Source: a virus
DNA length: 42,911 nucleotides
Strand: one strand, 5' to 3'
IMG/VR virus record: IMGVR_UViG_3300040801_002747
Location: 1 to 42,911 of that record
The translations under genes and the position numbers were made by a program. Below the pieces are notes generated by a model that was not told where the DNA came from, searched no databases, and was given only the letters and a program-made list of their open reading frames with translations. The number at the start of each line of letters is the position of its first letter. The first letter of the stretch is position 1. This document shows positions 11,496 through 32,616 of this stretch, one piece after another.

Positions 11496-11548
11496 TGGGG
11501 TGATTGATTGTATAATTACCCCATCAACCAACTATAGGTATATATTAA
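11496..11548 (+). promoter_or_regulatory. Conserved-leader promoter, copy 4, inside an inverted repeat
   Basis: TGGGGTGATT (11496-11505) pairs with AATTACCCCA (11514-11523), with one G-U, around an 8-nt loop. TATAAT is at 11511-11516 and ATCAAC starts at +1 (11523). Local RNA lacks almost the whole hairpin. Confidence 0.65.
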
Positions 11549-12751: not shown

Positions 12752-12761
12752 TATTCTTTAT

Positions 12762-17311: not shown

Positions 17312-17316
17312 GTGCT

Positions 17317-17324
17317 TATTTATA
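17317..17324 (-). promoter_or_regulatory. T4-type late promoter, 5 nt before the start
   Basis: Perfect TATAAATA on the minus strand, then AGCAC and ATG. No Shine-Dalgarno; the predicted mRNA is leaderless. Confidence 0.65.
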
Positions 17325-17367
17325 AACTTATCCACGTGGTTAAGTTGGCACAACGGGTAATAGAAGT

Positions 17368-17547
17368 ATGAAATACACAACAGTAGAATATATCGTACAA
17401 CGATTCAGCAGCAATAACGGAGTTGAGGAGGTGGTACTTTGTCACACCGAGATTGCTGTGCTAGCAGCTCGTGATCAACTTAAACTGAACCACCCTGAAT
17501 GGGACTTGGAAGCAATAAAACGAACGACCATAGAGGAACTGGTATGA
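17368..17547 (+). CDS. Hypothetical protein, 59 aa
   Basis: ATG at 17368. A small alpha/beta protein ending HPEWDLEAIKRTTIEELV. It overlaps the next gene by four bases (ATGA). Together with the next two ORFs it forms a small operon trapped between the two GIY-YIG genes. Confidence 0.6.
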   Translation: MKYTTVEYIVQRFSSNNGVEEVVLCHTEIAVLAARDQLKLNHPEWDLEAIKRTTIEELV

Positions 17548-17827: not shown

Positions 17828-18424
17828 TCAGCTGTCTTGAAGATATTTGTTAAGACGCGTTAATCCCCAGTGGAGATCTTTACACGCTTCGGTTTTTGAT
17901 CGATAGTGGGTTCCCTCCACAACAACAGGTGTTCGTTTGTGTTGATGATCACTCATTTTATTTCTTGCGCTGGTTGAGTGTGTCTTGCCTAACATTGTAC
18001 CGGGTTTACCGTATCTGGGGTTTTCCTTTCCAGGCATGCCTGGATGGTAAGATTTGCCCTTGTGTAGATCGCTCATTTTCTTTTTCTTTTCTTCTGTCCA
18101 TCGTGGCTTTGGCGTATAACCGTAAGCCTCTCCACCTAAAGAAGAATTGTAGCCTTCAAGCAAAGAGTTGTGTTGCTGAATCATTTCTTTTTCAACTTCA
18201 ACAGCGCGCTCCAAGGTTAAACCACCAACAAGTTCTTCGATAGACCAACAGTCAGTTCCGTATTTTCTGATAGCGTTTAATAGCTTCCGGCTCTTCTTTA
18301 CGTGCTTGGCGTTAGATTTGTGGTATGTCCATCGTCGAGTAAGGCCGATTCCAGTCATCCCAATATAAACTTTATTGGTGATTGAATTAGTTAATTTATA
18401 TACTTGATATTTTCTCGTTTCCAC
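17828..18424 (-). CDS. GIY-YIG homing endonuclease, copy B
   Basis: 198 aa, GTG start at 18424. QVYKLTNSITNKVYIGMTG (residues 7-25) is the GIY-YIG motif, then RRWTYHK; NUMOD3-like repeats with HKGKSYHPGMPGKENPRYGK and a C-terminal NUMOD1-like module follow. It shares nearly its whole design and many identical blocks with the gene at 16703. TATAAATA, CTAAT, GTG at its start: the same leaderless geometry as copy A. Confidence 0.9.
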   Translation of the reverse strand: METRKYQVYKLTNSITNKVYIGMTGIGLTRRWTYHKSNAKHVKKSRKLLNAIRKYGTDCWSIEELVGGLTLERAVEVEKEMIQQHNSLLEGYNSSLGGEAYGYTPKPRWTEEKKKKMSDLHKGKSYHPGMPGKENPRYGKPGTMLGKTHSTSARNKMSDHQHKRTPVVVEGTHYRSKTEACKDLHWGLTRLNKYLQDS

Positions 18425-18988: not shown

Positions 18989-19032
18989 TGTCATCAGTAG
19001 CCAACCGTTACACAACCAACGAAGATAACCAT

Positions 19033-20313
19033 ATGACGAAGAAAGATGTTACAACCTCGGGCGTTACTTGTTCTTTTTGTGGCAAGAATCAAGACGAAGT
19101 TAATAAACTAATTGCAGGTCCATCCGTTCACATTTGTGATGAGTGTATCACATTATGTGAAGACATAATGTCGAAGGACATGGCAGAAGATGCTGCCTCG
19201 TCATCTGACAGCAAACCCCTCCCCACCCCCAGTGAAATTCACACCTTCCTCAACCAATATATCATTGGACAGGATAGCGCAAAGCGGATCCTCTCAGTGG
19301 CAGTGTACAATCACTACAAGCGCATTGAATGTGCATCCACCCACAAAGACGGTGACGTTGAGTTGACCAAGAGTAATGTTCTGATAGCGGGCCCAACCGG
19401 TTGTGGTAAAACACTATTGGCTGAGACTTTAGCTCGGGTAATTGATGTACCGTTTGCAATTGCTGATGCAACATCACTAACTGAAGCAGGGTATGTTGGC
19501 GAAGATGTTGAAAACGTTCTCGTCAAACTACTGGCTAATTGCGATGGTGATATTGAAAAAGCAGCACACGGCATCATATATATCGATGAAATCGACAAAA
19601 TTGGACGCAAATCTGAGAACACCTCAATCACTCGTGATGTATCTGGTGAGGGTGTGCAACAAGCTCTTTTGAAAATGATCGAAGGTACTGTGGTGAATGT
19701 ACCGACAAAAGGTGGACGTAAGCACCCAGGCGGTGAGACAGTTACACTCGATACGAAAAACATCCTATTCATTGTTGGTGGTGCTTTCTCGGGTCTGGAA
19801 GCTGTGCTACGAGCCAAAAATGAAAAGAAGTCCGGTATAGGCTTTGCTGCTTCAGTCTCTTCTAAAGATGATGAAGCCGACAAGAAGAATACCGGTGAGC
19901 TGTTGCGTGATGTGCAATCCAGTGACTTTGTTCAGTTTGGACTGATCCCCGAATTTGTTGGCCGCTTGCCAATTGTTGCAACTCTCGAGAATCTGGACGA
20001 AGACGCGTTGGTCCAGATATTGACAGAACCCAAGAATGCCATCACAAAACAGTTCAGCAAGTTGTTGGGTATGGATGGTGTTGAAGTTGAATTCACTGAT
20101 GAAGCGTTGCGGGCTATCGCGAAGAAAGCTATCGAGCGTGAAACGGGAGCGCGTGGACTGCGAACGATTTTGGAGACGGCATTGCTGTCAACCATGTATG
20201 ATCTGCCTGACCGCAAGAACGTTGTTCGAGTAATCATCAACGATGATGTGATTAGTGGTGTGGCACTTCCGGAACTGGTTGAAGAAACCAAAGATCTGGT
20301 AGTTATCAGCTAG
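19033..20313 (+). CDS. clpX: ClpX-like unfoldase ATPase
   Basis: 426 aa, close to the length of bacterial ClpX (about 424). The N-terminal zinc-binding domain has four Cys (13, 16, 35, 38: CSFC, then CDEC). Walker A GPTGCGKT (about 120-127), pore loop GYVGED, Walker [12 protein letters not shown], then [19 protein letters not shown] and a sensor arginine region. The ClpP-docking IGF loop is present (KSGIGFAA, about residue 269), so it could pair with host ClpP. A full-length ClpX is unusual in a phage. It may redirect host proteolysis or remodel phage complexes. Start at ATG 19033; the longer frame from 18988 begins inside the promoter. Confidence 0.93.
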
Positions 20314-20422: not shown

Positions 20423-21457
20423 ATGAAGAAATATGACACAGTAGTGTACATTGGTCGATTCCGACCACCCCACCTTGCTCACATTGAAACAATGAAGCGA
20501 GCATTGGAAGCAGGCAACCAGTTGTTGGTTATCGTTGGTTCTGCGAATCAGCCCAGGACTGTAAAAAATCCTTGGACTGTAAGTGAAGTTGAAGTGATGA
20601 TCAAGTCTTCGCTTCCCGAAGATGTACGGGAGCGTGTAATGGTATTACCTCTGCGGGATACAGCATACAACGACCAAGCGTGGGTTCAACAAGTTCAAGA
20701 CAAAGTACGAGCCGTCACAGAACCATCAGATGTAGTTGGTCTCATTGGCCACTCAAAGGATGAATCATCCTACTACCTGAAGATGTTCCCACAATGGGAT
20801 CACATCGAGATGGAAAACATCAACGACATCCATGCTACAGACATTCGCAATGCTTACTTCGAAGCGAATGGCGACATGACGAACTTTGATTTTAAGATTG
20901 GTCGTAACCTTCCACCAGCCATTCATGACTTCATGAAAGCATTTGCTCATACCAGCGACTACGAAACCCTGGTCAATGAGTACAAGTTTCTGGTTGCTCA
21001 TGCAAAGATGTGGGAAGATGCACCATACCCACCCATGTTCATCACGACAGATGCTGTTGTTGTTCAGTCTGGCCATGTACTTTTGGTAAAGCGTCGCGCT
21101 GAACCTGGTAAGAATTTGTGGGCGATTCCTGGAGGTTATCTGAATCAAAAAGAGTACATCATTGATGGTTTGATTCGAGAGCTGCGTGAAGAAACAATGC
21201 TGAAGGTGCCGGGTCCTGTCCTTCGTGGTTCTATCAAATACACCGGCGTGTATGATGCTCCAGATAGAAGTCCCCGTGGTCGTATTGTTACTCATGCTTC
21301 ACTGATTGAATTGCCAGCTGGCCCGTTACCACCCGTCAAAGGATCAGATGATGCTGAGAAGGCCAAATGGATTCCACTGAGTGTGTTCGAGCGAATGGAA
21401 GAACAGATGTTCGAAGATCATTTCCACATCATACGAGACCTTTTGGGTAAGATGTAA
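20423..21457 (+). CDS. natV: NMN adenylyltransferase/Nudix bifunctional protein (NatV-like)
   Basis: 344 aa. N-terminal nucleotidyltransferase: GRFRPPHLAH (residues 11-20, GxFxPxHxxH) and the IHATDIRN motif near residue 135. C-terminal Nudix hydrolase, box near residues 236-258: GGYLNQKEYIIDGLIRELRE then ETML, where the usual Gly of REUXEEXGU is Met. It joins ATP to NMN to make NAD; the Nudix half likely hydrolyses ADP-ribose or NAD derivatives. KVP40 NatV has the same two-domain order. With NadV (25578) it gives a two-step route from nicotinamide to NAD. Confidence 0.92.
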   Translation: MKKYDTVVYIGRFRPPHLAHIETMKRALEAGNQLLVIVGSANQPRTVKNPWTVSEVEVMIKSSLPEDVRERVMVLPLRDTAYNDQAWVQQVQDKVRAVTEPSDVVGLIGHSKDESSYYLKMFPQWDHIEMENINDIHATDIRNAYFEANGDMTNFDFKIGRNLPPAIHDFMKAFAHTSDYETLVNEYKFLVAHAKMWEDAPYPPMFITTDAVVVQSGHVLLVKRRAEPGKNLWAIPGGYLNQKEYIIDGLIRELREETMLKVPGPVLRGSIKYTGVYDAPDRSPRGRIVTHASLIELPAGPLPPVKGSDDAEKAKWIPLSVFERMEEQMFEDHFHIIRDLLGKM

Positions 21458-21459
21458 CG

Positions 21460-21518
21460 TTGACATCAAGAGTGGTTCCTGTATAATAGTTTAAAACCAC
21501 AGAGAACCACTCTTGATG
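21460..21518 (+). promoter_or_regulatory. Promoter inside a perfect 15-bp inverted repeat
   Basis: TTGACA (21460-21465), 16-bp spacer, TATAAT (21482-21487), +1 at 21494. CATCAAGAGTGGTTC (21464-21478) and GAACCACTCTTGATG (21504-21518) are perfect inverted copies; the right arm covers the ribosome site and the ATG at 21516. Only read-through RNA contains both arms. Confidence 0.8.
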
Positions 21519-21800
21519 CTTGAAGATTTACTATCCCGCTTGAACGCAACGATGCAGGAATTTGCTGACAGTCGTGCTCTCCCTGAAACAGAAGAAGAAA
21601 TCCGTACAGCGGTAAATTCTTTAGGGCTTGATTTTATAGACGAGAACGCAATTGTTGAATTTCATCCTCCAACGATCGCATTGGTATCACGTGGTTCAGA
21701 ACTTGGCTACGTCGCTGATCTTCCTGTGTTGTTGGACGGTTGGAGTGATTCAATTCCCCTTTCATCTTTGGTTATACTGACACGTACAACAAACTTATGA
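21516..21800 (+). CDS. Hypothetical protein, 94 aa
   Basis: I start at the ATG 21516; a TTG at 21513 is possible. Mostly helical, acidic, beginning MLEDLLSRL. Function unknown. The 3' end overlaps the next gene by four bases, and that gene has a promoter of its own (TATACT at 21773-21778). Confidence 0.65.
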   Translation: MLEDLLSRLNATMQEFADSRALPETEEEIRTAVNSLGLDFIDENAIVEFHPPTIALVSRGSELGYVADLPVLLDGWSDSIPLSSLVILTRTTNL

Positions 21801-22612
21801 GACATTTACTTCTGGCTGCTTTGCTCGTAACTGTTCCAGCATCAGCTCAACAATATGGTGGTGAAGAGTCAGTGTTCCGACGAGCTGCTGAAGCAGCAAA
21901 GACTCATACCACAACTCTCCCATCGGCAACCCGAACACCAACACAGCGTTCCAGCAATCAGTATATTGGACCACTGACGTATAATGGGGTGCGAGGTGCT
22001 ATCATCAACAATGAAGGTGATTCGAGAGCTGCCAGAGCACGAATGCAACAGAAGAAGATTCTGATCGAAGCTGAACGTGCAGCCGGACTATACAACCCAC
22101 CCGAAGAGTACACACTACACGGACAACCCGTTGCTACCACAGCTGAGCGAAATGGTGAGTGGTATAGTGATTCATTCTACAACAAGCACGAAGATGCCAA
22201 CCGAGTTCGGTTGGATGCTTGGACTTTCCAGCGAGGATTTCGACACAACGCTTTTGTGTTGTCTTGTGTGTATGACAGAGAATCTCAGACAGGTGGTAAT
22301 CTGAAGTTCTTTATCAAGGGATTAGATCCTGTTGGCTTCTTGGGTGCTGACACAACGGTCGTTGTTAAGATTGCTGGCTCAACCAAGGAAACATTTCGTC
22401 TTGATGGTAGAGTTAGCCACGTCCGTTCCACAAATGTTCACATTGACATTTCTGATCAATACTTGATAGACCGTATGCGTGATGCTCGTACTTTTTCGGT
22501 AATGGTGCAATCGATTACCAACCCGCGGCCAGTAACGATGGATTTCAGTTTAATGGGATTCGCATCAGCAGCGGCTAACACAATCACTAATTGTATGGAA
22601 GGTGTTCAATGA
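21797..22612 (+). CDS. Exported protein of unknown function
   Basis: 271 aa with a clean signal peptide (MRHLLLAALLVTVPASA, cleavage before QQYGG). A helical Ala/Arg-rich region (residues about 30-110) leads to a beta-rich C-terminal domain (about 145-265) with one Cys pair (SCVYDRES, ITNCMEG), which may form a periplasmic disulfide. The pattern of that domain (RVRLDAWTFQR, DTTVVVKIAGSTKETF) resembles small periplasmic beta-sandwich proteins. No phage function recognised; likely acts on the host periplasm or is packaged. Confidence 0.7.
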   Translation: MRHLLLAALLVTVPASAQQYGGEESVFRRAAEAAKTHTTTLPSATRTPTQRSSNQYIGPLTYNGVRGAIINNEGDSRAARARMQQKKILIEAERAAGLYNPPEEYTLHGQPVATTAERNGEWYSDSFYNKHEDANRVRLDAWTFQRGFRHNAFVLSCVYDRESQTGGNLKFFIKGLDPVGFLGADTTVVVKIAGSTKETFRLDGRVSHVRSTNVHIDISDQYLIDRMRDARTFSVMVQSITNPRPVTMDFSLMGFASAAANTITNCMEGVQ

Positions 22613-22821
22613 ACGAACGATCACACTACCTCGCGACAACGCCTGTTCGACAAAATCTACTAACGGAAAAGGGATACTCGCCATATTGTTGCCAAGACAA
22701 TTGCAACCAAGGCCTGACACGAACGAAGTGGACTGGTAGTCAGTTCAAGTGTGGATGTGGTTGGGTGTCATCGTTTCCCGAGGAGTTCATTGCTGAATAT
22801 AAAAGGATATGGAATAAATGA
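22609..22821 (+). CDS. 70-aa zinc-ribbon protein
   Basis: The ATG at 22609 overlaps the previous stop. CC...C and CGCGW motifs (YCCQDNCNQ, then FKCGCGW) give four to five Cys for a zinc ribbon. It is part of an overlapping gene chain that runs into the P-loop gene (ATGA at 22818). Confidence 0.6.
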   Translation: MNERSHYLATTPVRQNLLTEKGYSPYCCQDNCNQGLTRTKWTGSQFKCGCGWVSSFPEEFIAEYKRIWNK

Positions 22822-23342
22822 AAATTATAAATTTGTTTGGAGGCGCAGGATCAGGAAAAAGTACGGTTGCAGCAGGTTTGTTCTACCGTATGAAGGTTGC
22901 CGGCACCAACGCGGAACTTGTTACAGAGTTCGCTAAGGACCTCAACTACGGCGGGCAGATTGCCTCAATGATGGATCAACAAGAGTACATCTTCGCTGAG
23001 CAGAACTACCGTCAACATCGCCTACGGCCTCACGTGGATTACGCAATTACCGATAGCCCATTAATGTTGAGCACCATATACGCACCACAGGATTATCCGA
23101 TCCGGACAAAGTTCTGTGAGTTTGTATTGGCGACCAATGGGTTGTATGACAATATTAACATTTTCCTGTTGAGACCTGAAATATTCCAAGAAACGGGGCG
23201 CTACCACACCCTTGAGGAGGCGATAAGTGTTGACAACGAGATTTTAACAATGCTGTATACCTACAACATTCCGTTCAATTCCGTGCAGACTGGTGATGGT
23301 GTTCTGGATCAGATAATGGAAATCGTTGATCATTTCGCCTAA
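22818..23342 (+). CDS. P-loop NTPase, possibly NadR/nucleotide-kinase-like
   Basis: 174 aa. GGAGSGKST (residues 8-16) is Walker A; YAITDSPLML (about residues 75-84) could be the Walker B/lid region; RQHRLRP is a basic patch. The size and the AELVTEFAKDL element after the P-loop recall AAA_28/NadR-type ribosylnicotinamide kinases. In an NAD-salvage phage, a nicotinamide riboside kinase would fit, but a nucleotide kinase is equally possible from this sequence alone. Confidence 0.6.
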   Translation: MKIINLFGGAGSGKSTVAAGLFYRMKVAGTNAELVTEFAKDLNYGGQIASMMDQQEYIFAEQNYRQHRLRPHVDYAITDSPLMLSTIYAPQDYPIRTKFCEFVLATNGLYDNINIFLLRPEIFQETGRYHTLEEAISVDNEILTMLYTYNIPFNSVQTGDGVLDQIMEIVDHFA

Positions 23343-23350
23343 ATAGGCGA
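23334..23350 (+). promoter_or_regulatory. Late-type box CTAAATA in a palindrome
   Basis: TTCGCC TAAATA GGCGAA is a perfect hairpin with TAAATA as its loop. The start codon at 23351 follows CTAAATA by 5 nt (GGCGA). It may be a late promoter for the small-protein cluster that follows. Confidence 0.5.
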
Positions 23351-23554
23351 ATGAGACTAGAAGACATAGCAAATGTGACGCCTGCCGTCACTGTAGATAC
23401 CAAAAATCCGATACGTGATGCGATCAGATCGCGTAAGACTGCGGGCATCAAGGCTGCATTGCTTCAGAATCAACGAAACAAGGATGGTGTCGACAATGCC
23501 CCAATTATGACGGGTGGTGGTGATATTAAGGACTGTGGGGAGCACAACCCGTGA
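23351..23554 (+). CDS. MRLEDI protein, small basic with Gly/Asp tail
   Basis: 67 aa. N-terminal MRLEDIANVTP signature, basic middle (RDAIRSRKTAGIKAALLQNQRNKDG), then NAPIMTGGGDIKDCG. It is a clear paralogue in layout of the protein at 25217 (same order AI..KK..IxA..D..N..I..G.GD). Predicted internal head or packaged protein. Confidence 0.65.
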   Translation: MRLEDIANVTPAVTVDTKNPIRDAIRSRKTAGIKAALLQNQRNKDGVDNAPIMTGGGDIKDCGEHNP

Positions 23555-24315
23555 AGCTAGTGGATCTGAAGGAAGCAGCGGTTGTTAAGATGATTCTCGG
23601 CAACATTCCATTCATTAAACGAAAGGACACCACAACACCTGTTGATTTCCGAAAACTCAAGTATCTTGGGTCAGGTGTTGAAGCTGACGTATATGGAGCT
23701 ACGAAAGCTGGCAAGGTGGTTAAAATATTGAGATTCCCTCAAGGGTTTGATTATAACGGAGTTCAGAATAATCCTTTCCTACATTATGTGTCGATGTGTT
23801 TGCATAATGTTAGTAACCCATACTTCCCAAAGTTCATGAGCGCGAAGGTGTATGAGATTCCATTCAAATCAGATAAACAATCTGACAACAACACCATGCG
23901 TGACGAGATGGATCGTGACATGACTGTTGACCACCCCGATCGACCATCAGACTTCATGTTGATTGTTATAATGGAACACTTACTCGAGCTTGATGAAATC
24001 GACTTGGATGATGGCGAGCGCGTGTTCAATGAACATGGAATGACGCTTGATGCCACTGATGCTGAAATAGATACCAACAAACGTGGTGATAAAGGATACA
24101 TATCACTCCGATCATTGGGCATGGACAATAAGAATCTGAAACGTGTACTCAATAATACAAACAATCCTGAGTTCCACGACGCTCTCAAGAAACTGGCTCC
24201 ACTGTTCAAACGATTTGGTGGTGATACGCACTCTGGAAATTTGATGTTCCGTAGTGTTGGTGATGGTTATCAACTTGTATTCACTGACCCACTATACCCC
24301 GAGGAGTTGCACTAA
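23551..24315 (+). CDS. Kinase-fold protein A with MKLVDL N-terminus
   Basis: 254 aa, GTG start overlapping the previous stop (GTGA). After the MKLVDLKEAA signature comes a nucleotide-binding loop (LGSGVEADVYGA) and the Lys of KVVKILR (VAIK-like). The catalytic-type motif GGDTHSGNLMF (HxDxxxxN-like) is followed by FTDPL in place of DFG. This is the protein/aminoglycoside kinase fold in reduced form; a pseudokinase is possible because the His-Arg-Asp is degenerate. The paralogue at 24506 has the same motifs. If the signature is a capsid-targeting peptide, it would be injected with the genome. Confidence 0.7.
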   Translation: MKLVDLKEAAVVKMILGNIPFIKRKDTTTPVDFRKLKYLGSGVEADVYGATKAGKVVKILRFPQGFDYNGVQNNPFLHYVSMCLHNVSNPYFPKFMSAKVYEIPFKSDKQSDNNTMRDEMDRDMTVDHPDRPSDFMLIVIMEHLLELDEIDLDDGERVFNEHGMTLDATDAEIDTNKRGDKGYISLRSLGMDNKNLKRVLNNTNNPEFHDALKKLAPLFKRFGGDTHSGNLMFRSVGDGYQLVFTDPLYPEELH

Positions 24316-24509
24316 TGAAACTAAAAGACATTATGCTGGAGGCTGGAGTTCAAGGCGTCAAGAGCAACAAGAAAAAGAAGAAAAGGAAAAAGCCAACCAC
24401 GATTGTCGGTTATGGTGGCCTTGGTGGTTATGGTGCTTACACAAGTGGTATCACCGATGGTACAAATGGTGATTTCAGTTCTGGTGGTGATGGCGGAGGC
24501 GGTGAGTGA
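24315..24509 (+). CDS. MKLKDI protein, basic with Gly-rich tail
   Basis: 64 aa. MKLKDIMLEAG at the N-terminus, a poly-Lys stretch (SNKKKKKRKK), then Gly/Tyr-rich sequence ending GDGGGGE. It lies exactly between the two kinase-fold genes with one-base and four-base overlaps. IMLE followed by AG fits a T4 gp21-like protease site (Leu/Ile-X-Glu before a small residue). Probably a packaged, DNA-binding peptide; inferred. Confidence 0.65.
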   Translation: MKLKDIMLEAGVQGVKSNKKKKKRKKPTTIVGYGGLGGYGAYTSGITDGTNGDFSSGGDGGGGE

Positions 24510-25213
24510 AACTCGTTGACCTAATGGAAGCCAGGACCGTTGAACGCATTCATGGCATTCCTGTTATTGAATCTGACCCTGATGGCGTTATTAATCTTTC
24601 CAAGATGAAGCACGCTGGTTCTGGTATTGAAGGTGATGTATACTTCACAAACGATGGCAACAAAGTCATTAAGGCCGTGCGCCTCAGATATCAGGGTGGT
24701 ATTGAACATAGCCCATTTGTTGAGTTTGTTGGCCTGTGTCTTGAAAATAAGAACAACCCATACTTCCCGAAGATCCACAACGCCAAGATATACAAGATTA
24801 AGGAAAGAAATGAGAAGCACGTGACGAGTAAGAAGATGGGTCCTGTCAATGCTGCTCGTCGTCGACAGCGTGGTGAATTATCTGCGGCCAGTCCATACCT
24901 ATTGGTCGTTACAATGGAAACGTTGGCCCCCATCGCCCGTAAAGATAAAGATAAGATAGAGCCAATATTCAACAGCGTTGGATTGAGCCTAGAAGCTGGT
25001 AGCCACGACCACGAACACACTTCCACGATTGGCAAGGATCATTTGTCAACGGAACGTGTGATTAACAATACTTCGGATAGCAATCTGCGGGCGGCTCTAC
25101 AGCTACTGGAACCACTTTTCAAGAAGCACGGTGGTGACCTTCACATAGACAACTGGATGATGCGTGGTGACCAGATTGTTATCGTTGATCCACTACAACC
25201 ATTTTTGGGATAA
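24506..25213 (+). CDS. Kinase-fold protein B with MKLVDL N-terminus
   Basis: 235 aa, GTG start overlapping the previous stop. It repeats the plan of kinase A: MKLVDLMEAR, GSGIEGDVYFT, KVIKAVR, then ENKNNPYFPKIHNAKIYKI, LLVVTMETL, and GGDLHIDNWMM with VDPL. Two adjacent diverged paralogues suggest duplication followed by specialisation. The role could be phosphorylation of a host target or, if inactive, binding one. Confidence 0.7.
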   Translation: MKLVDLMEARTVERIHGIPVIESDPDGVINLSKMKHAGSGIEGDVYFTNDGNKVIKAVRLRYQGGIEHSPFVEFVGLCLENKNNPYFPKIHNAKIYKIKERNEKHVTSKKMGPVNAARRRQRGELSAASPYLLVVTMETLAPIARKDKDKIEPIFNSVGLSLEAGSHDHEHTSTIGKDHLSTERVINNTSDSNLRAALQLLEPLFKKHGGDLHIDNWMMRGDQIVIVDPLQPFLG

Positions 25214-25216
25214 TAC

Positions 25217-25435
25217 ATGAAACTGGATGACATAGTGGATACACAGCCAAAGACGCGCAAGATGCGAAATGCGATCAAGCACAAGAAGTTAGCATCCGCC
25301 ATTGACGCGTTATCAAAGGACAAGCAAAACTCTGACAAACATCGCGCCAACAATACACAGATTGGTACAGGCGTTGGTGACTATAATGACGAGGGTGAGT
25401 TTGATAGTGGTGATACCAACATGGGTGAGTTGTAA
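25217..25435 (+). CDS. MKLDDI protein, small basic with Gly/Asp tail
   Basis: 72 aa. MKLDDIVDTQ, basic helical middle (KMRNAIKHKKLASAIDAL), then ANNTQIGTGVGDYNDEGEF and an acidic tail. It mirrors 23351 residue pattern by residue pattern and is the last gene of the cluster. Confidence 0.65.
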   Translation: MKLDDIVDTQPKTRKMRNAIKHKKLASAIDALSKDKQNSDKHRANNTQIGTGVGDYNDEGEFDSGDTNMGEL

Positions 25436-25453
25436 ATGACCCTCAGTTTTTTG

Positions 25454-25577
25454 TTGCTCAGCACGACGTAGTTCATATATAATTATATCCAAGGTCGGAA
25501 AGGCCTTGGATAGTTCTACCCAACCGAATAGAGAAAGACTCTTGACGGATAACTTTTAATGATGAAGGAGCTTTATC
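25454..25577 (+). promoter_or_regulatory. nadV promoter and structured leader
   Basis: TTGCTC (25454-25459), 18-bp spacer, TATAAT (25478-25483), +1 near 25490. TATCCAAGG (25486-25494) and CCTTGGATA (25504-25512) form a 9-bp stem around the start of the transcript. Further down, ATGATGAAG, GAG, CTTTATCAT (25559-25579) holds AGGAG in its tip and reaches into the start codon. The Shine-Dalgarno hairpin resembles that of natV. Confidence 0.65.
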
Positions 25578-26960
25578 ATGCAAAAAAATATTATTTTAAA
25601 CACCGATTCATACAAAGCCAGCCAATGGGTACAATACCCACCAAACACAACAAGTGTTTCCTCTTACATAGAGGCACGAGGCGGCGAATTCGAAGAGACA
25701 GTTTTCTTCGGCCTTCAGATGTTCATCAAAGAATATCTCACTACCCCTATCACCACTGAAATGATTGACGAAGCCGAATGGTTTCTGAAAGCTCATGGCG
25801 AGCCGTTCAACCGCTCTGGATGGGAATATATTGTCAATCAACACAAAGGTCGTCTTCCGATCCGCATATCTGCTGTTCCAGAAGGCACCGTTGTACCGAC
25901 AAGCAATGTCCTGTGTCAAGTAGAGAATACTGACCCATTGTGCTTCTGGCTGACTTCTTATATCGAAACTGCCCTGTTGCGTGGTATTTGGTATGCAACC
26001 ACTGTCGCTACCAAGAGCCGTGAAACCAAGAAAGTAATTCAACAATATCTGGTTGATACAGCGGACGAAGATGCACTGGGTGGACTTCCGTTCAAACTGC
26101 ACGATTTCGGTGCTAGAGGGGTTAGTTCGTACGAATCTGCTGGCATTGGTGGTGCTGCACATCTTGTGAATTTCATGGGAACTGACACGATGACGGGAGC
26201 TCTGTTCGCGATGAAGTATTACAACGAAACTGAAGTACCTGGTTTTAGTGTTCCAGCTTCTGAACACAGCACAATTACTTCATGGATGAAGGAAGGTGAA
26301 TTAGACGCTTACAGAAATATGTTCAAGCAATTCGGCGGTGAATATCCGATCGTGTCAGTTGTCTCTGACAGCTACGATATCTACAACGCTGTTGAAAATA
26401 TGTGGGGCGGAGAATTAAAGGACATGGTAGAACAGTCCGGATCAATGTTGGTTGTCAGACCCGATTCTGGCGAGCCAGCTGAAGTTGTGGTGAAGGTAGC
26501 TCTCTTGTTGGATGCGACATTCGGTAGTACTGTCAATTCGAAAGGATACAAGGTGCTGAACAATGTTAGAATTTTACAGGGTGATGGACTAAACAACATT
26601 GGAGACTTTGTTAAAATTCTAGCTAAACTGAAAGGTTATAATTTTTCTACCGACAATGTCGTTTTTGGTCAAGGTGGTGGGCTTCTACAACAGGTGAACA
26701 GAGACACATGTAAATTTGCAATGAAGTGTTCTTCAATTACCGTCGATGGTGAACAGCGTGACGTGTACAAAGATCCTATTACCGATTCGGGTAAGCGTTC
26801 CAAGAAAGGACGCCTGGCACTCGTGGACATCAACGGTGTGTTGACTACGGTTGCTGAAGCTGAAGCTTGTGAGAATAACCTACTCGAGGTGGTTTTCGAG
26901 AACGGGAAGCTCATCAAGGATGAGACATTCGCTGACATTCGAGACCGTGCTAGCGTTTAA
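25578..26960 (+). CDS. nadV: Nicotinamide phosphoribosyltransferase (NadV)
   Basis: 460 aa, the usual length of NAMPT-type enzymes. Motifs: NTDSYKASQWVQYPPNTT (N-terminal), FHDFGARG-like HDFGARGVSS (about residue 172), GTDTMTG, VPASEHSTI, SVVSDSYD, VVRPDSGEP and GQGGGLLQ. These match the nicotinate/nicotinamide phosphoribosyltransferase fold, NadV branch. It converts nicotinamide and PRPP to NMN; NatV then makes NAD. The gene is monocistronic with a structured leader. The minus-strand membrane gene overlaps its last 81 bases. Confidence 0.93.
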   Translation: MQKNIILNTDSYKASQWVQYPPNTTSVSSYIEARGGEFEETVFFGLQMFIKEYLTTPITTEMIDEAEWFLKAHGEPFNRSGWEYIVNQHKGRLPIRISAVPEGTVVPTSNVLCQVENTDPLCFWLTSYIETALLRGIWYATTVATKSRETKKVIQQYLVDTADEDALGGLPFKLHDFGARGVSSYESAGIGGAAHLVNFMGTDTMTGALFAMKYYNETEVPGFSVPASEHSTITSWMKEGELDAYRNMFKQFGGEYPIVSVVSDSYDIYNAVENMWGGELKDMVEQSGSMLVVRPDSGEPAEVVVKVALLLDATFGSTVNSKGYKVLNNVRILQGDGLNNIGDFVKILAKLKGYNFSTDNVVFGQGGGLLQQVNRDTCKFAMKCSSITVDGEQRDVYKDPITDSGKRSKKGRLALVDINGVLTTVAEAEACENNLLEVVFENGKLIKDETFADIRDRASV

Positions 26961-27191
26961 TGTTGGTTGATTGGTCCACCCAGTACCTGGGTGAACAGCA
27001 ACGATGACGAGGCAGGATGTGGCTAGTACACATCCTGTCCCTATTCCGAATACATGAAATATGGACATGGCCAGTAAGCGACAATATTCATCACCAAACA
27101 CAAACATCAATGAACCAATTCCAAGAAACCCCGCAACAATTGCGGAACACATAGCAACTGGTATCATTAACAGGGTGATTAGAATGTCCAT
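26880..27191 (-). CDS. Small membrane protein on the minus strand
   Basis: 103 aa from the ATG at 27191. Two membrane segments (about residues 3-28, ILITLLMIPVAMCSAIVAG, and 40-66, LLAMSIFHVFGIGTG then CVLATSCLVIVAV). AGTAAATA lies four bases before the ATG. The C-terminal 27 residues are antisense to nadV, so the real end is uncertain. It may be a holin-like or immunity protein; function not identified. Confidence 0.5.
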   Translation of the reverse strand: MDILITLLMIPVAMCSAIVAGFLGIGSLMFVFGDEYCRLLAMSIFHVFGIGTGCVLATSCLVIVAVHPGTGWTNQPTLNASTVSNVSECLILDELPVLENHLE

Positions 27192-27195
27192 GTGA

Positions 27196-27203
27196 TATTT
27201 ACT
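27196..27203 (-). promoter_or_regulatory. Late-type box AGTAAATA, 4 nt before the start
   Basis: Minus-strand AGTAAATA, TCAC, ATG. No Shine-Dalgarno. Confidence 0.45.
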
Positions 27204-27257
27204 TGAACATGTGGTATACTTGGTAAAATAATCACAAATTGATAAAGGGTGGTGCCA

Positions 27258-27725
27258 ATGGAAACAATTGACGAAAAGGTACAGAAAATACGAGAATTGT
27301 GGGTTGATATAGATCACTGGGAAGCTTTGTGCATGCAGTGGAACATTGACAACCCATATGACAAAATGCCTGAAATGGGTTTGTTCAAAGCAACCCATCT
27401 TGACGTGATGCACGTGTTTGATTTGGTGATAAACAGCCCAAATGATGTATTCGGTGTATCGATGTTCGGGATGACGGTGCAAATGGCCGAGGCGTTGAAT
27501 TACCTATGTGGTGCCATCAGAGTACTTGATCATGTCTTCACTTTGCATGATGGTGGTATACAATACGACCTGTCGCTCCGAGATGTGAGTGACGCGTATA
27601 GTGGTGAACTCATACACCCCGAAACGGGTAAACCTGTCGAGGACTGGAAGAACCACGTGACCGTCAATTATAAACTAACAGATGAAATGAAGAGGTTAAA
27701 GGATGATTACAAAAGTAGGATTTGA
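27258..27725 (+). CDS. Hypothetical protein, 155 aa
   Basis: ATG at 27258 with AAAGGGTGG upstream; a GTG at 27249 is the alternative. Helical, with conserved-looking WVDIDHWEALCMQW and YDLSLRDVSDAYSG. No family recognised. It overlaps the HAD-like gene by 23 bases, which suggests cotranslation. Confidence 0.7.
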   Translation: METIDEKVQKIRELWVDIDHWEALCMQWNIDNPYDKMPEMGLFKATHLDVMHVFDLVINSPNDVFGVSMFGMTVQMAEALNYLCGAIRVLDHVFTLHDGGIQYDLSLRDVSDAYSGELIHPETGKPVEDWKNHVTVNYKLTDEMKRLKDDYKSRI

Positions 27726-28116
27726 TGTACATGGTGTTATTGACACCTTTCCAGCGTTTGTGAATTTGATGAACGCATTGATCGCTGACCCAAACTTTGA
27801 AGTTCACATCATAACAGGATTGTCACGTAAGCACGCTCCCGATGAGATTGGACACATTGTTGACCTTGATAAAGTTGTGTACATGTCAATCGTAGACTAT
27901 TTGATTGAACGTGGCGATCCTATTGTTTGGGAAGATGGTTTGCCGCATGCTGACAAAGAATCATGGGACAAAGCAAAATCTGAATATTGTACTGAGCATG
28001 GAATAGACATTCTGTTCGATGACAGTCCAACATACGGGCAATATTTTCACACCATCGACACAACGTACTGCCAAGTACACAACGTAAATAGAACGGTTCA
28101 CAAAACCAGAAAATAA
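27703..28116 (+). CDS. HAD-like phosphatase
   Basis: 137 aa. FDVHGVIDTFP at the N-terminus occupies the place of the HAD DxDG(T/V) motif, with His for the second acid; HIITGLSRKH could be motif II (T) and FDDSPTYGQYF motif IV (DD). Short HAD-like phosphatases of phages act on nucleotides or nucleic acid ends. The changed second Asp may reduce activity. Substrate unknown. Confidence 0.6.
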   Translation: MITKVGFDVHGVIDTFPAFVNLMNALIADPNFEVHIITGLSRKHAPDEIGHIVDLDKVVYMSIVDYLIERGDPIVWEDGLPHADKESWDKAKSEYCTEHGIDILFDDSPTYGQYFHTIDTTYCQVHNVNRTVHKTRK

Positions 28117-28118
28117 AG

Positions 28119-28146
28119 TTGACTTATTGTCAATTTAAAGTATACT
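28119..28146 (+). promoter_or_regulatory. Sigma70 promoter of the exported barrel gene
   Basis: TTGACT (28119-28124), 16-bp spacer, TATACT (28141-28146). TTGAC and GTCAA form a small inverted repeat over the -35 box. Confidence 0.75.
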
Positions 28147-28196
28147 AGTTTAATCAAGACACACACAAACCTTTCATAACCTATAGGAAAATATAT

Positions 28197-28844
28197 ATGA
28201 AAAACACTCTGATCACTGCTGCTGTTGCTCTTGCAATTGCTTCTACTACTGCCGTTGCTGCTCCTTCCATTGAAGTTCAAGTACTCGGTGGACAAATCAC
28301 AGCACCTTCACATTTCCGTGTTGACAACGACAACGTCACTGGCGCTACGAATGTCGTCGATCGTGTTGAACGTGAACTAGGCGCTAACAGCAAGAACGTT
28401 TCAGCCGACTTTGCTCCTGGACTGCGTCTTGGTGTACGCCTTGGTGATTCTCCTGTAATCGTTCAAGTCGGTGCTCGCCAATCTGACCACCTGGACCTGT
28501 CTTACGATGCTGGTGTTCGTTACAGTGCAATCGGTTCCAAGCTCGGTGCTGAAGCTCGCGTAGTTCGTTTTGACGAAACTGTTGTTCGTGATGCTTTCGG
28601 TGGAAGCATTGAAGGCGAAGCTCTGGTAACATACGATGTTGCTAAGTACCTTCGTTTGGGTGCCGGCGTATCCACAGCTACTCTGAGTTCTTCAGACGTA
28701 ACTGGCCTGGTAACTGCTGACTTGGTATTCAAGTTCGGTAGCCAGAGTGTAGATGCTGCCATCGCGCCAATCGTTGACTTTGTGAAGCCAACTACTGCTC
28801 CGGTCGTAGCACCAATCGAAGAAGTCACTGGCGAGCGTGGTTAA
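28197..28844 (+). CDS. Exported outer-membrane-like protein
   Basis: 215 aa. Signal peptide MKNTLITAAVALAIASTTAVA, cleaved before APSIE. The mature part alternates short amphipathic strands (VSADFAPGLRLGVRLG, VIVQVGARQSDHLDLSYDAGVRYSAIGS, KLGAEARVVRFDETVV, LGAGVSTATLSSS), as in opacity- or OmpA-type barrels. The C-terminal PVVAPIEEVTGERG is a non-barrel tail. It is a single-gene unit with promoter and terminator, so it may be made early and inserted in the host outer membrane. Its benefit, such as blocking superinfection, is inferred. Confidence 0.75.
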   Translation: MKNTLITAAVALAIASTTAVAAPSIEVQVLGGQITAPSHFRVDNDNVTGATNVVDRVERELGANSKNVSADFAPGLRLGVRLGDSPVIVQVGARQSDHLDLSYDAGVRYSAIGSKLGAEARVVRFDETVVRDAFGGSIEGEALVTYDVAKYLRLGAGVSTATLSSSDVTGLVTADLVFKFGSQSVDAAIAPIVDFVKPTTAPVVAPIEEVTGERG

Positions 28845-28869
28845 TACCACCTCTCGGTAATTAGTATTG

Positions 28870-28899
28870 AAAAAAAGCTGGCATAAGCCAGCTTTTTTT
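28870..28899 (+). terminator. Rho-independent, bidirectional terminator
   Basis: AAAAAAAGCTGGC and GCCAGCTTTTTTT pair perfectly around ATAA. Confidence 0.93.
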
Positions 28900-28923
28900 G
28901 TTTTAAAATTTAATAAACTATAG

Positions 28924-28936
28924 TATAATAAGCCTC
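28924..28936 (+). promoter_or_regulatory. -10 box giving a leaderless mRNA
   Basis: TATAAT (28924-28929) gives +1 near 28936, one base before the ATG at 28937. No Shine-Dalgarno. Confidence 0.55.
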
Positions 28937-29704
28937 ATGACACACCTCGAAGACAATTACAAAAAGCTGGATCTCGACACGACGCAACGACATTTTGTGT
29001 TCGGTGACATTCATGGACACTTTGGCACCTTTCTTGACCTGTTAAATCTTATCAACTATGACGAGGAACGGGATGTTATATACTCTGTTGGAGACTTGAT
29101 TGACCGTGGACCACAGTCAACAGAGGTTGTTGAGTTCTGGGAGAATCACCCGAAGCGTCACGTCACACGCGGCAATCACGAACAGATGCTCGTCGCATTT
29201 GGTAAGTGGGAAAGCTGCTGGATGTATGCACCTAATGGTGGTCCAGCAACACTTGCATCACTTGCTGATAGAGACAGGAGCATTGAGTGGTTGAAGGATT
29301 TTTGTCGTTCACTGCCTATCGTCATCGATGTAGGTGACAATGATGACCCAAATGCTTTTCGAATCGTACACGCCGAGCACCCTGCTATAATGTCCAATGA
29401 AGACATTATGCGTATTTTGGAACACACCTCTACCGAAGACCTTGGTGAAAGTGATTTGTTGTGGAGTCGCAATGATATCACAACAGCACTGCAAAACGTA
29501 TCCAGAATGTTGCCAACCACACACAACGTGCAAATCAATCCAAACTGGGGCAGTCGAAAGACTTATTCTGGACATACGCCAGTTAAGAATAGTGTGGTGA
29601 AGATGGGACACCAGCACTGGATCGATACTTCATGGGGTGATACTATGACTTGTGTTGAAGTATTGACAGATAAGGCTTACAGCACTAAGCTGCTTCGACA
29701 ATGA
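28937..29704 (+). CDS. Lambda-type serine/threonine protein phosphatase
   Basis: 255 aa. GDIHG (residues 23-27), GDLIDRG (52-58), GNHE (79-82) and a C-terminal SGHTPV give the full bacteriophage-lambda-phosphatase (PP1/calcineurin) metal and phosphate set. It would remove phosphates from Ser/Thr, and possibly other residues. In the company of two kinase-like proteins it may reverse host or phage kinase activity, or defuse phosphorylation-based defence. Overlaps the next start by four bases. Confidence 0.9.
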   Translation: MTHLEDNYKKLDLDTTQRHFVFGDIHGHFGTFLDLLNLINYDEERDVIYSVGDLIDRGPQSTEVVEFWENHPKRHVTRGNHEQMLVAFGKWESCWMYAPNGGPATLASLADRDRSIEWLKDFCRSLPIVIDVGDNDDPNAFRIVHAEHPAIMSNEDIMRILEHTSTEDLGESDLLWSRNDITTALQNVSRMLPTTHNVQINPNWGSRKTYSGHTPVKNSVVKMGHQHWIDTSWGDTMTCVEVLTDKAYSTKLLRQ

Positions 29705-30249
29705 TCTCATACTCTGGTGTGGGCTCTCGAATAGTACCACCTCCAATTGAATCACAACTCGTTGCTGTTGGTTGCTATCTGGCACAACTGGGAATCAATT
29801 TGCGATCAGGTGCTGCTGATGGGGCCGACAAGGCCTTCGAGCGTGGTTGTGATATGTTAAAGGGTCCGAAGGAAATCTTTCTTCCATGGTGCAAATTTAA
29901 CAACCATCGCTCCGAGTTGTGGGTTATACCTGACGTGGCCTATACAGTGGCGAAGCAATACTACCCATATGATTGGAACCGAGCCAAAGATACAACGAAA
30001 CGTTTCATGGCTCGAGATTGTATGCAGGTGTCAGGATTAACACTTAACGACTTTGTGGAGTTTGTTGTATGCTATACAAGATGCGGATGCGAACACGATG
30101 ATGATCGAACACCGACGGCTGGTGGTACTGGTCAGGCGATATCGTACGCTTCACTAAATGACATACCTGTGTTCAATTTACACAACGAAGGCCGCTACGA
30201 AGAGCTGCTGGATTTCATCAACTCAAGATATGATACACATGACCACTGA
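29701..30249 (+). CDS. SLOG/DprA-like Rossmann protein
   Basis: 182 aa. SGVGSRIVPPPI at the start, RSGAADGADKAFERGCD (phosphate-binding GADxxFE, residues about 36-52), and a C-terminal TAGGTGQAISYA. This pattern (GSR then SGxAxGAD then GGTxQA) marks the SLOG/LOG superfamily as in DprA and in domains that bind nucleotides or NAD-derived ligands. It is smaller than DprA. In defence systems SLOG proteins sense ligands; here it could bind such signals. Overlaps the next gene. Confidence 0.7.
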   Translation: MISYSGVGSRIVPPPIESQLVAVGCYLAQLGINLRSGAADGADKAFERGCDMLKGPKEIFLPWCKFNNHRSELWVIPDVAYTVAKQYYPYDWNRAKDTTKRFMARDCMQVSGLTLNDFVEFVVCYTRCGCEHDDDRTPTAGGTGQAISYASLNDIPVFNLHNEGRYEELLDFINSRYDTHDH

Positions 30250-30466
30250 ATACAAACTTGTAGAAGGACTACCGTCCACGGTTGAACGAGAAGTAAACAA
30301 CTTACTCGAAGAAGGTTGGGAAGTGTTGGGCGCTCCATTCTCACGAGAGTCTAATAGTGTGGTTCTCGTTGTACAACCAATGTTGTTTCAAGAGAACGTC
30401 ATAGACGAACATGACGTTTTGGGCAATTTAATTAAACAACACAAAACAAAAAGGAATACTATATAA
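30239..30466 (+). CDS. DUF1737-like small protein
   Basis: 75 aa, ATG inside the end of the previous gene. EYKLVEGLPSTVEREVNNLLEEGWEVLGAPF has the spacing of DUF1737-type proteins (VNxxLxEGW then G-G/A-P). Common in phages; function unknown. Its stop abuts the convergent minus ORF. Confidence 0.65.
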   Translation: MTTEYKLVEGLPSTVEREVNNLLEEGWEVLGAPFSRESNSVVLVVQPMLFQENVIDEHDVLGNLIKQHKTKRNTI

Positions 30467-30622
30467 TCAGGTAACTTCTTTGATTGTCCAACCAACCATG
30501 CAACCTCTATTGACACACGTTCGTCCTGCAATTTCATACACTCCTGGTTTTCTGGGATCGAGTAGAGCATACACGTAGTGTTTTGATCTTGTTTTCGAAT
30601 CTAAAATGTTGTATGATATCAT
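30467..30622 (-). pseudogene. Remnant of a GIY-YIG-type endonuclease
   Basis: 51 aa on the minus strand from the ATG at 30622. The segment KHYVYALLDPRKPGVYE matches the start of a GIY-YIG/T5orf172-type endonuclease (YVYxLxDPRkPG), but the sequence then departs, without the catalytic Arg/Glu part. AGTAAATA lies five bases before the ATG. Either a degraded homing endonuclease or a small protein that reused its N-terminus. Confidence 0.5.
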
Positions 30623-30627
30623 TATAA

Positions 30628-30635
30628 TATTTACT
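30628..30635 (-). promoter_or_regulatory. Late-type box AGTAAATA, 5 nt before the start
   Basis: Minus-strand AGTAAATA, TTATA, ATG. Confidence 0.45.
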
Positions 30636-30660
30636 AACCAATAACAGGAGTATACCACCC

Positions 30661-31266
30661 TTGCCTTACATACCACAAGAACAACGAGCTCAGCTCAATC
30701 AAGCAGTTGATACCCTGACGGACGTATTCGTAAATTCAGTACTCGATGACGAAACAGCGAACTACGAGGGCATGATTAATTATGCTTTCACCCGGCTGAT
30801 GATGAATGTATATGGTGAGGCTGACAGTACTCGCTACTCAAACATCAACAACGCTATTGGAGTTCTGGAATGTTGTAAGATGGAGCTCTATCGCAAAGTA
30901 GCAGGTCCGTACGAGGATCGGAAGCAACACGAAAATGGTGCTGTGGTAGCTCGTGATGATAGCGAATTGTTGGATACGATCACCATCAACGTTCAACAGA
31001 ATGGTGGTGAAAGCGGTGCTCCATCAATGGAAGACATGCCAGAAGATGTCAAAGAAGCTATGGGCATTCCGAAGGAAGATGTTGTGGTTTCAAAAGAACA
31101 CGGTCGTGAATTTGAAGGTGTTGCTGATCCACGACTGTCCCTGAAAGAACGAACAGAAGCTGAAAGTGAAGCTCTGTTCAACCCACCAGTAATCAAAGTT
31201 GCTCCAAACCCTAGCACCAATGCTGGATACGGTGAAGGCGAGTTTGGTGATGGCGAAGACCTCTAA
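30661..31266 (+). CDS. DUF6899-like phage protein
   Basis: 201 aa, TTG start with AGGAG at 30646-30650. It opens MPYIPQEQR and later has GMINYAFTRLM, NNAIGVLECCKMELYRKVAGPYED. I associate this N-terminus with a widespread, uncharacterised phage domain (DUF6899). The C-terminal half is acidic and disordered-looking, ending GYGEGEFGDGEDL. Convergent with the HNH gene; the stops overlap. Confidence 0.65.
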   Translation: MPYIPQEQRAQLNQAVDTLTDVFVNSVLDDETANYEGMINYAFTRLMMNVYGEADSTRYSNINNAIGVLECCKMELYRKVAGPYEDRKQHENGAVVARDDSELLDTITINVQQNGGESGAPSMEDMPEDVKEAMGIPKEDVVVSKEHGREFEGVADPRLSLKERTEAESEALFNPPVIKVAPNPSTNAGYGEGEFGDGEDL

Positions 31267-32135
31267 GAGTTGAAAGTTGTTTTGAAGGTTTCGAATTGTT
31301 CTTTTGTTGTATTCTTGCCATAGGTTTTGTGAAATTCTTTGTGACAAGAACGACACAAAGTAACCCCATTTGACACTTCATAACGCTGTTTCGGGTTTGC
31401 CATATAAGAATTCAAGTGGTGGGCGACACATTGATGGTTGTGTGAGCACAAAACACATGACCAACAATCTCTTGTTCGTACTTGCTTTGACCATGTTTTG
31501 TTTTTGTGGGATCGTCTATCTTCAACACGTTGTGTTTCAGTGATATTTGTATTAAAATTCGGGTGTTTGTTACCAGATCGTGCTTCGCCCTCACAACAAC
31601 GCAACATACCACCATCACGTAAGATTCGAGCTCTTGTGTTCCTGTACTGGTTGTGTTTATTGCAGTATATGGTTATTTTGCTGTGCCAATCTTTAAATTC
31701 ACCAACCAGTACATAATCGTGTGTTTGTAATATAGGCGACAATACTAGTTGCTTTGAGTGCTGGACACAACATTCAAATTTAAAATTAGTATGTCGTAAT
31801 GTGTGCCAACAAGTGTTGCGTTCGCCACCGTGTTTGGTGCAACGCCAGGTTTGTTTAGATTGTGATCCTCTGTATTCAGAATCGTCAAAATCTAAATCAT
31901 TTGATGTGGCGAACTTCCTGGCTTGCTTCAAAGTCTGTTGTTGTTTTAATTCAACACTACAACACTTTAACCGTTTGGATGTGCGTAATTTGTCATAGGA
32001 CATTTCGTGCGTGGAGTTGTGTAATCGACACGTCCACCTGTGTTTAAATTTGGAATTTACATACACATCATCTTCAAACACGCAGTTGATATTCCTGCAC
32101 AACTCATCTATAATATCTGTATTGATTTTAGACAT
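31263..32135 (-). CDS. HNH homing endonuclease with repeated zinc-like N-terminus
   Basis: 290 aa on the minus strand from the ATG at 32135 (GGGGAG in front). Residues about 15-180 carry Cys/His-rich repeats (RWTCRLHNSTHEMSYDKLRT, TWRCTKHGGERNTCW, ITIYCNKHNQYRN), DNA-binding units. The C-terminal HNH domain reads CWSCVLCSHNHQCVAHHLNSY then NGVTLCRSCHKEFHKTYG: two CxxC pairs and the HH/N/H residues. CATAAATA at 32159-32166 is a candidate late promoter with a 23-nt gap. Inserted convergently beside 31266. Confidence 0.88.
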   Translation of the reverse strand: MSKINTDIIDELCRNINCVFEDDVYVNSKFKHRWTCRLHNSTHEMSYDKLRTSKRLKCCSVELKQQQTLKQARKFATSNDLDFDDSEYRGSQSKQTWRCTKHGGERNTCWHTLRHTNFKFECCVQHSKQLVLSPILQTHDYVLVGEFKDWHSKITIYCNKHNQYRNTRARILRDGGMLRCCEGEARSGNKHPNFNTNITETQRVEDRRSHKNKTWSKQVRTRDCWSCVLCSHNHQCVAHHLNSYMANPKQRYEVSNGVTLCRSCHKEFHKTYGKNTTKEQFETFKTTFNS

Positions 32136-32158
32136 CACCACTCCCCATACTTTAATGG

Positions 32159-32166
32159 TATTTATG
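32159..32166 (-). promoter_or_regulatory. Late-type box CATAAATA for the HNH gene
   Basis: Minus-strand CATAAATA, 23 nt before the ATG at 32135. Unlike the leaderless group, the leader here is long enough to hold GGGGAG. Confidence 0.45.
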
Positions 32167-32616
32167 ACAAACATACAACTGGTAACACAAAACATTGTAA
32201 ACATTCCGTGTGGTATGATAGCACATGGGTGCAACACTTCTGGTGGATTTGGCTCGGGAGTTGCTGGAGCTATACGCAAGAAGTTCCCCCAAGCTGCAAT
32301 CGCACATCAACGTAAAGGCACAGGTGCTCATCTGTTGGGTACTGTTGACTTTGTTAACGTGGCAGAAAACATCATCGTTGCAAACTGCTACACCCAAGAA
32401 TTTTTTGGAGCGGATGGTAAAGTTTATGCGGACGTATCGCACATAGAAAAAGCTTTGGGTATTTGTTTTGCCGAAGCGGAGCGGCTTGATGTTCCACTAT
32501 ACGTGCCCCAAATCGGGTGCGGCCTGGGTGGATTGGTGTGGGACGCTGATGTTGAACCCATCATCGCAAAACACATTGATAATTTCAACGTTGATGTAAC
32601 AGTTTGCGTTTTGTAG
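32164..32616 (+). CDS. Macro-domain ADP-ribose-binding protein
   Basis: 150 aa. NIQLVTQNIVNIPCGMIAHGCNTSGGFGSGVAGAIRKKFP holds the conserved N-terminal macrodomain elements (AHGCN, GxGxGxxxAI), and VPQIGCGLGGL is the second ligand loop. Macro domains bind ADP-ribose and often hydrolyse ADP-ribose 1''-phosphate or remove ADP-ribose from targets. In this NAD-focused phage it could neutralise ADP-ribosylation or NAD-derived signals. The start overlaps the divergent HNH promoter; no clear Shine-Dalgarno. Confidence 0.88.
   Translation: MTNIQLVTQNIVNIPCGMIAHGCNTSGGFGSGVAGAIRKKFPQAAIAHQRKGTGAHLLGTVDFVNVAENIIVANCYTQEFFGADGKVYADVSHIEKALGICFAEAERLDVPLYVPQIGCGLGGLVWDADVEPIIAKHIDNFNVDVTVCVL

Follow-up and report, generated by a model that had tools for sequence, protein, structure and literature searches.

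A NARP2-type NAD+-rebuilding gene pair in an uncultivated virus and a macro domain protein that probably serves it

Introduction

NARP2 is reportedly a phage route for the reconstitution of nicotinamide adenine dinucleotide (NAD+) by a nicotinamide phosphoribosyltransferase (Nampt) and a nicotinamide mononucleotide adenylyltransferase (NMNAT), described by Osterman and colleagues in 2024. Phages employ the pair to restore NAD+ that bacterial defences have destroyed. Enzymes of the NadV family join nicotinamide to phosphoribosyl pyrophosphate (PRPP) to form nicotinamide mononucleotide (NMN), and those of the NatV family convert NMN to NAD+, while their Nudix domain cleaves ADP-ribose to AMP plus ribose-5-phosphate. 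Here we describe a fragment of an uncultivated virus (IMG/VR record IMGVR_UViG_3300040801_002747), the whole 42.9-kb stretch being called the window below, which encodes a NadV and a NatV alongside a macro domain protein, a SLOG-fold protein and a P-loop protein. Cultured phages gave no near DNA match to the window over the region searched. Open reading frames and profile matches confirmed all five genes at the positions given by the initial annotation, and all are on the plus strand.

A second route, NARP1, shares its purpose with NARP2 and employs Adps and Namat, the latter being homologous to Nampt and having a clamp of aromatic residues for adenine (PMC12774641). Accessory genes have been reported in this setting. 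Within its NARP1 operon phage DyoEdafos encodes RyDEP, a cyclic ADP-ribose (cADPR) hydrolase whose product, ADP-ribose, fuels NAD+ synthesis (PMC13232231), and the macro gene PaAdele_020, downstream of NARP1 in Pseudomonas phage Adele, was suggested by its authors to release ADP-ribose for NARP1 (PMC12846349). The window macro gene resembles both as an accessory that would supply ADP-ribose to NAD+ rebuilding. However, RyDEP has an RyR fold, proven cADPR hydrolase activity and a NARP1 setting, whereas the window gene encodes a macro fold and a predicted hydrolase beside NARP2, and the Adele proposal concerns one phage, NARP1 and a Poa1p-type argument.

The same families have also been named as one network. 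Phage NadV, NadM, Macro, SLOG and Nudix were proposed to form a counter-defence network, co-occurring above chance, and it is NADAR, not Macro, that the text names in NadM-NadV neighbourhoods; a test of macro linkage was not found in the text (Iyer et al., 2022; PMC9503650). The NadV/NatV NARP2 pair is itself already known. What is apparently new is the measured recurrence of macro genes, the extension to NARP2 and a dedicated NatV-macro-NadV clade, none of which was found in print (open-access text, figures aside).

The window encodes a NARP2 pair

NatV has the Pfam domains CTP_transf_like (E 3e-10) and NUDIX (E 1.5e-16), scores above the threshold that NCBIfam sets for the bifunctional enzyme (E 3.5e-126) and is matched over nearly its whole length by the Slr0787 structure 2qjo (E 3e-103). 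Its motifs are the nucleotidyltransferase GRFRPPHLAH, ATDIR and a Nudix box, G237..E244..REL.EE. NadV matches its NCBIfam model with E 1e-190, has a Xanthomonas Nampt structure as its best PDB match (E 2e-157), and carries the catalytic His230 and the RPDSG loop.

NadV was compared with the NadV-annotated protein of phage Felix O1, which lies beside a PRPP-synthetase-like gene and was taken as a Namat. In the alignment GGGLLQQVNRD of the window protein stands against GSYTYQYMTRD of Felix O1, Gly and Gln occupy the positions of the Namat clamp residues F392 and Y396, and the window protein has none of the long insertions of Namat. A PF13793 search of the window fragment for the PRPP-synthetase-like Adps found no homologue. 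Since NadV lacks the clamp and the window lacks Adps, NadV is not a Namat of NARP1, and the sequences firmly point to a NARP2 pair. The NAD+-rebuilding half of the initial annotation is therefore upheld. As in NARP2 of the KVP40 type, a Nampt-type NadV and a bifunctional NatV lie on one strand with NatV upstream; the window differs in the 4.1 kb and several genes that separate the two, and in having macro and SLOG genes downstream of the pair.

Macro genes recur beside NAD+-rebuilding genes

NadV served as the query for a set of 80 viral loci, and 54 entire records were screened for the macro, SLOG, NatV and P-loop families. In 50 of 52 records no more than 10 kb separates NatV from NadV; the two are invariably on one strand, with NatV almost always immediately upstream. 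A macro gene is present in 28 records. Its distance from NadV is at most 10 kb in 23 of them (5.8 expected; 0/5000 random placements) and at most 1 kb in 12 (0.6 expected), and 26 of the 28 have both genes on one strand. Cultured phages with NatV, NadV and macro include Sinorhizobium phage phiM7 and Rhizobium phage RHph_I1_18, and in the latter the three genes overlap end to start. General clustering of early genes can be rejected as the cause, as control genes in the same records are near NadV at chance level (PhoH 6/27, ribonucleotide reductase 4/26). Single-protein scans yielded PhoH at four loci and tRNA nucleotidyltransferase at none, too few for a control set.

A tree of 118 macro domains contains one 28-member clade in which every member is NARP2-linked (SH-aLRT branch support 99) and the gene order is NatV-macro-NadV in 23 of the 28. 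Further separate lineages are also linked, and the window macro belongs to one of these. Outside the dedicated clade 12/17 macro genes are within 10 kb of NadV (3.1 expected, 0/20000), and 7/12 when one record is kept per lineage (1.9 expected, 4/20000), so a single clade does not explain all of the linkage. This tree was built quickly and many of its forks are weak. Taken by themselves its starred branches require few separate origins, so the number of macro recruitments is uncertain.

Divergent NadV-like genes adjoining Adps prompted a test of NARP1. Adps was in reach at 73 of 80 Namat loci, and at these 73 a macro gene was found at 42 and SLOG at 8. Of 33 NARP1 records that have a macro gene, 30 carry it no more than 10 kb from Namat (7.7 expected, 0/20000) and 31 carry it on the Namat strand; a few of the 33 are near-copies. 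Several of these loci are ordered Adps-Namat-macro-SLOG and others Adps-macro-Namat. The first order, seen in L257, L258, L259, L261, L262, L267 and L242, is the tightest form of the toolkit observed. Taken with the NARP2 records, the recurrence of macro and SLOG beside NAD+-rebuilding kits in many phages suggests that they probably form one counter-defence toolkit, with macro a probable functional partner of NAD+ rebuilding.

The initial annotation had joined macro and SLOG to NadV and NatV in one set despite calling the genes scattered. Recurrent linkage in diverse phages bears this out for macro, and more weakly for SLOG. The window order NatV, P-loop, NadV, SLOG, macro is also found in viral record L010, with identities of 63%, 53%, 67%, 49% and 41% respectively, and L020 keeps the order minus the P-loop gene. 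Other NAD+-related genes were seen in Xanthomonas phage X1 (L006), where two annotated genes precede NatV, an NAD(+) synthase (10687-11517) at a distance of about 2 kb and an ADP-ribosyltransferase at about 10 kb.

The macro protein

The macro protein matches phrog_335 (E 7e-31) and is barely above the Pfam Macro cut-off. Its predicted fold (confidence score pLDDT 95) shares the macro architecture of BT1257, SCO6735, TARG1, DarG and Poa1p with Z of 18-23, BT1257 being nearest (Z 23). The comparison with SCO6735 (5e3b) gave Z 20.2 over 137 aligned residues, with a root-mean-square deviation of 2.1 and 31% identity.

The active site holds His23, Asn26 and Gln80 (residue numbers refer to window positions 32158-32613). 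Gln80 is kept in 155 and Asn26 in all of 156 homologues, whether NARP1-linked, NARP2-linked or neither. They are the counterparts of Gln85 and Asn27, both essential in SCO6735 of Streptomyces coelicolor, which cuts ADP-ribose off thymidine in DNA and off protein, and guards against DarT (PMC9411070). Mutation of Lys34 or Lys89 of SCO6735 lowered activity on DNA or protein (PMC9411070); in the alignment neither lysine is conserved, the positions of Val25 (or Ile), Lys34 and Lys89 being Gly24, Ser33 and Gly84 in the window protein.

The catalytic lysines of the ALC1-like DarG (Lys80) and TARG1 (Lys84) are also absent, with Gln in place of the DarG lysine, as is Asp125 of TARG1. The protein is thus not a DarG proper, and no DarT was recognised among the window open reading frames scanned. 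The residues of Poa1p-type ADP-ribose-1''-phosphatases are His23, Asn26, Ser30 and Gly33 (PMC12846349), of which the window protein keeps the first two and has, by eye from a motif alignment, Gly30 and Ser33. Sequence and model together suggest a putative ADP-ribose-releasing hydrolase. The initial annotation had proposed that macro and SLOG destroy or bind NAD-derived signals; for macro, the release of ADP-ribose is plausible from homology and context.

The SLOG protein

The SLOG protein matches phrog_768 (E 4e-40) and has a predicted SLOG Rossmann-like fold (pLDDT 96). Molybdenum-cofactor carrier (Z 15.3) and DprA (Z 14.5) are its closest folds, followed by LOG, with ThsA and YpsA lower; the cADPR-sensor SLOG of ThsA scores about 11. 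LOG phosphoribohydrolases carry the motif PGGxGTxxE. The window protein has AGGTGQAIS in its place and was rejected as a LOG enzyme. A PDB sequence search gave a meaningless match only.

SLOG is near NadV in six of the ten records that carry it. At 80 loci found by SLOG, a NadV-like gene lies within 10 kb at ten, upstream and on the same strand every time. The window gene has its start codon overlapping the stop of a NinI-like metallophosphatase gene (ATGA), so these two are likely co-translated. SLOG is a possible partner in the NAD+-rebuilding set.

A model of NAD+ rebuilding and ADP-ribose recycling

On balance we favour the view that the window is a phage NARP2 NAD+-rebuilding locus with an ADP-ribose-releasing macro accessory that probably feeds NAD+ rebuilding. 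The sequences support NadV and NatV as identified here, a macro fold with the Gln and Asn at its site, and a linkage that recurs. NadV would make NMN from nicotinamide and PRPP, and the first domain of NatV would turn this into NAD+. The Nudix domain would convert ADP-ribose to AMP and ribose-5-phosphate, and the host would return the latter to PRPP.

As to the macro substrate, the hand-over of ADP-ribose, the role of SLOG and the counter-defence use in this phage, we infer the following. The macro protein would remove ADP-ribose from the conjugates or signals of NAD+-using defences, with ADP-ribosylated DNA or protein and 1''-linked ADP-ribose metabolites as candidate substrates; its action would reverse the attack and the product would be recycled. 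SLOG, which appears to travel with such loci, would probably bind or process a related nucleotide.

Several points weigh against this. What NARP2 requires is PRPP and not ADP-ribose as such, and a supply by way of Nudix would be indirect. In the window, 5.2 kb and other genes separate macro from NadV, and this macro falls outside the dedicated clade, so that co-transcription of the two is only a possibility. The loss of the two SCO6735 lysines counts here too. The linked genomes are partly related, so the counts are not independent, and the SLOG linkage comes from few records. In the reverse search, a NadV-like gene is within 10 kb at only 13 of 80 macro loci. These low reverse counts indicate that macro and SLOG are general phage tools repeatedly put beside NAD+-rebuilding genes and not exclusive partners.

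A broader version of the favoured reading is that macro and SLOG are standing parts of both NARP operon types, where they would dismantle NAD+-derived signals or adducts, and the freed ADP-ribose would be fed back into NAD+. We regard this as tentative. The return could be direct at NARP1, via Adps-Namat, and at NARP2 would pass through the Nudix domain of NatV to ribose-5-phosphate and on to PRPP. If true, phages couple the disarming of immune signals with the refuelling of the cell in one operon, and many phage macro genes labelled 'phosphatase' or 'Appr-1-p processing' would gain a testable role. For experiments, ready systems exist in the NatV-macro-NadV clade and at the Adps-Namat-macro-SLOG loci.

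Alternative explanations

The strongest alternative is that a NARP2 pair stands beside an independent macro de-ADP-ribosylase which reverses DarT-type ADP-ribosylation of DNA (or protein), the genes being neighbours as counter-defence genes only, with no metabolic tie. No characterised relative is closer in sequence than SCO6735, which also ranks among the nearest folds; it strips ADP-ribose from DNA thymidine and protects from DarT, and DarG models match the macro protein weakly (NCBIfam, 32.8 bits for a cut-off of 250; PADLOC likewise). However, the DarG and TARG1 residues listed above and the two SCO6735 lysines are missing, and relatives place macro inside the operon (NatV-macro-NadV, Adps-macro-Namat), which indicates a link to the pathway. 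We consider this alternative rather unlikely.

Ordinary metabolic provisioning is less probable again. Here NAD+ and nucleotide pools would be boosted for phage replication, and macro and SLOG would be passengers of an early-gene island. Large phages do carry many auxiliary metabolic genes, and each of NadV, macro and SLOG occurs commonly in them, but PhoH and ribonucleotide reductase are randomly placed relative to NadV in records where macro is not, and the macro clustering recurs at NARP1.

The full set of the initial annotation also included the P-loop protein as NadR-like; acting as a nicotinamide riboside kinase, it would open a third way to NAD+. It matches AAA_28 (E 3e-11) and phrog_2107 (E 5e-17), which also matches the kinase domain of the true NadR of RHph_I1_18; its gene directly follows NatV in 2/10 records (L010 and L055 only), and one phage homologue is annotated NadR. 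Against this, it matches neither NadR model (TIGR01526, NF005988) whereas the RHph_I1_18 NadR matches both, BLAST found no similarity between the two proteins, the NadR motif EYGR is EFAK, the fused adenylyltransferase domain is absent, and the gene is within 10 kb of NadV in 1/11 records (1.8 expected), no nearer than chance. The NadR assignment is thus withdrawn and a third route seems very improbable; the gene would encode a small kinase, whose membership in the set is not supported. A PDB sequence search with the P-loop protein gave no match. RHph_I1_18 (L003) has a separate pair of NadR and PnuC transporter genes (2906-4583) as a second NAD+ route besides NatV-NadV-macro.

Other features of the window

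The features discussed above and their neighbours are collected in Table 1.

Table 1. Positions of genes in the 42.9-kb window
Feature	Position	Strand	Remarks
PagP-like protein	4653-5138		phrog_3600 (lipid A acylation family), E 2e-10
DNA-methyltransferase-family frame	11549-12751		overlaps next frame
DNA-methyltransferase-family frame	12687-13223		overlaps previous frame
Homing-endonuclease-like gene	15109-15894	-	antisense; phrog_655
Homing-endonuclease-like gene	16703-17380	-	antisense; phrog_314
Homing-endonuclease-like gene	17828-18424	-	antisense; GIY-YIG-like by eye
ClpX-like ATPase	19030-20313		immediately upstream of NatV; phrog_4339, E 3e-107; N-terminal zinc-binding-type segment
NatV, bifunctional NMN adenylyltransferase/Nudix (ADP-ribose pyrophosphatase)	20423-21457	+	344 amino acids; profiles
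P-loop nucleoside/nucleotide-kinase-like protein	22818-23342	+	174 amino acids; AAA_28, phrog_2107; doubtful set member
NadV, nicotinamide phosphoribosyltransferase (Nampt type)	25578-26960	+	460 amino acids; profiles
NinI-like metallophosphatase	28937-29704	+	uncertain set member
SLOG-fold protein, DprA/molybdenum-cofactor-carrier-like	29701-30249	+	182 amino acids; phrog_768
HNH homing-endonuclease-like gene	31263-32279	-	antisense, just upstream of macro gene
Macro domain protein, predicted Gln-type ALC1-like ADP-ribosyl-hydrolase family	32164-32616 (alternative ATG 32155)	+	phrog_335

The HNH gene has a counterpart in L020 (15941-16816, 37% identical), at the same place as in the window, and the three other homing-endonuclease-like genes lie between plus-strand genes. 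The two overlapping frames which each match DNA-methyltransferase families are possibly a split or frameshifted gene.

Seven window proteins share a leader, M[KR]L-x-(D/E)-(I/L), their starts being at 23351, 23551, 24315, 24506, 25217, 33061 and 33932. Examples are MKLVDLKEA, MKLKDIMLEA and MKLTELTEN, which recall the T4-type capsid-targeting leaders of internal head proteins. The long leader proteins starting at 23551 and 24506 look like paralogues, and the former weakly matches a T7 gp0.7-type kinase family (phrog_15752, E 6e-8).

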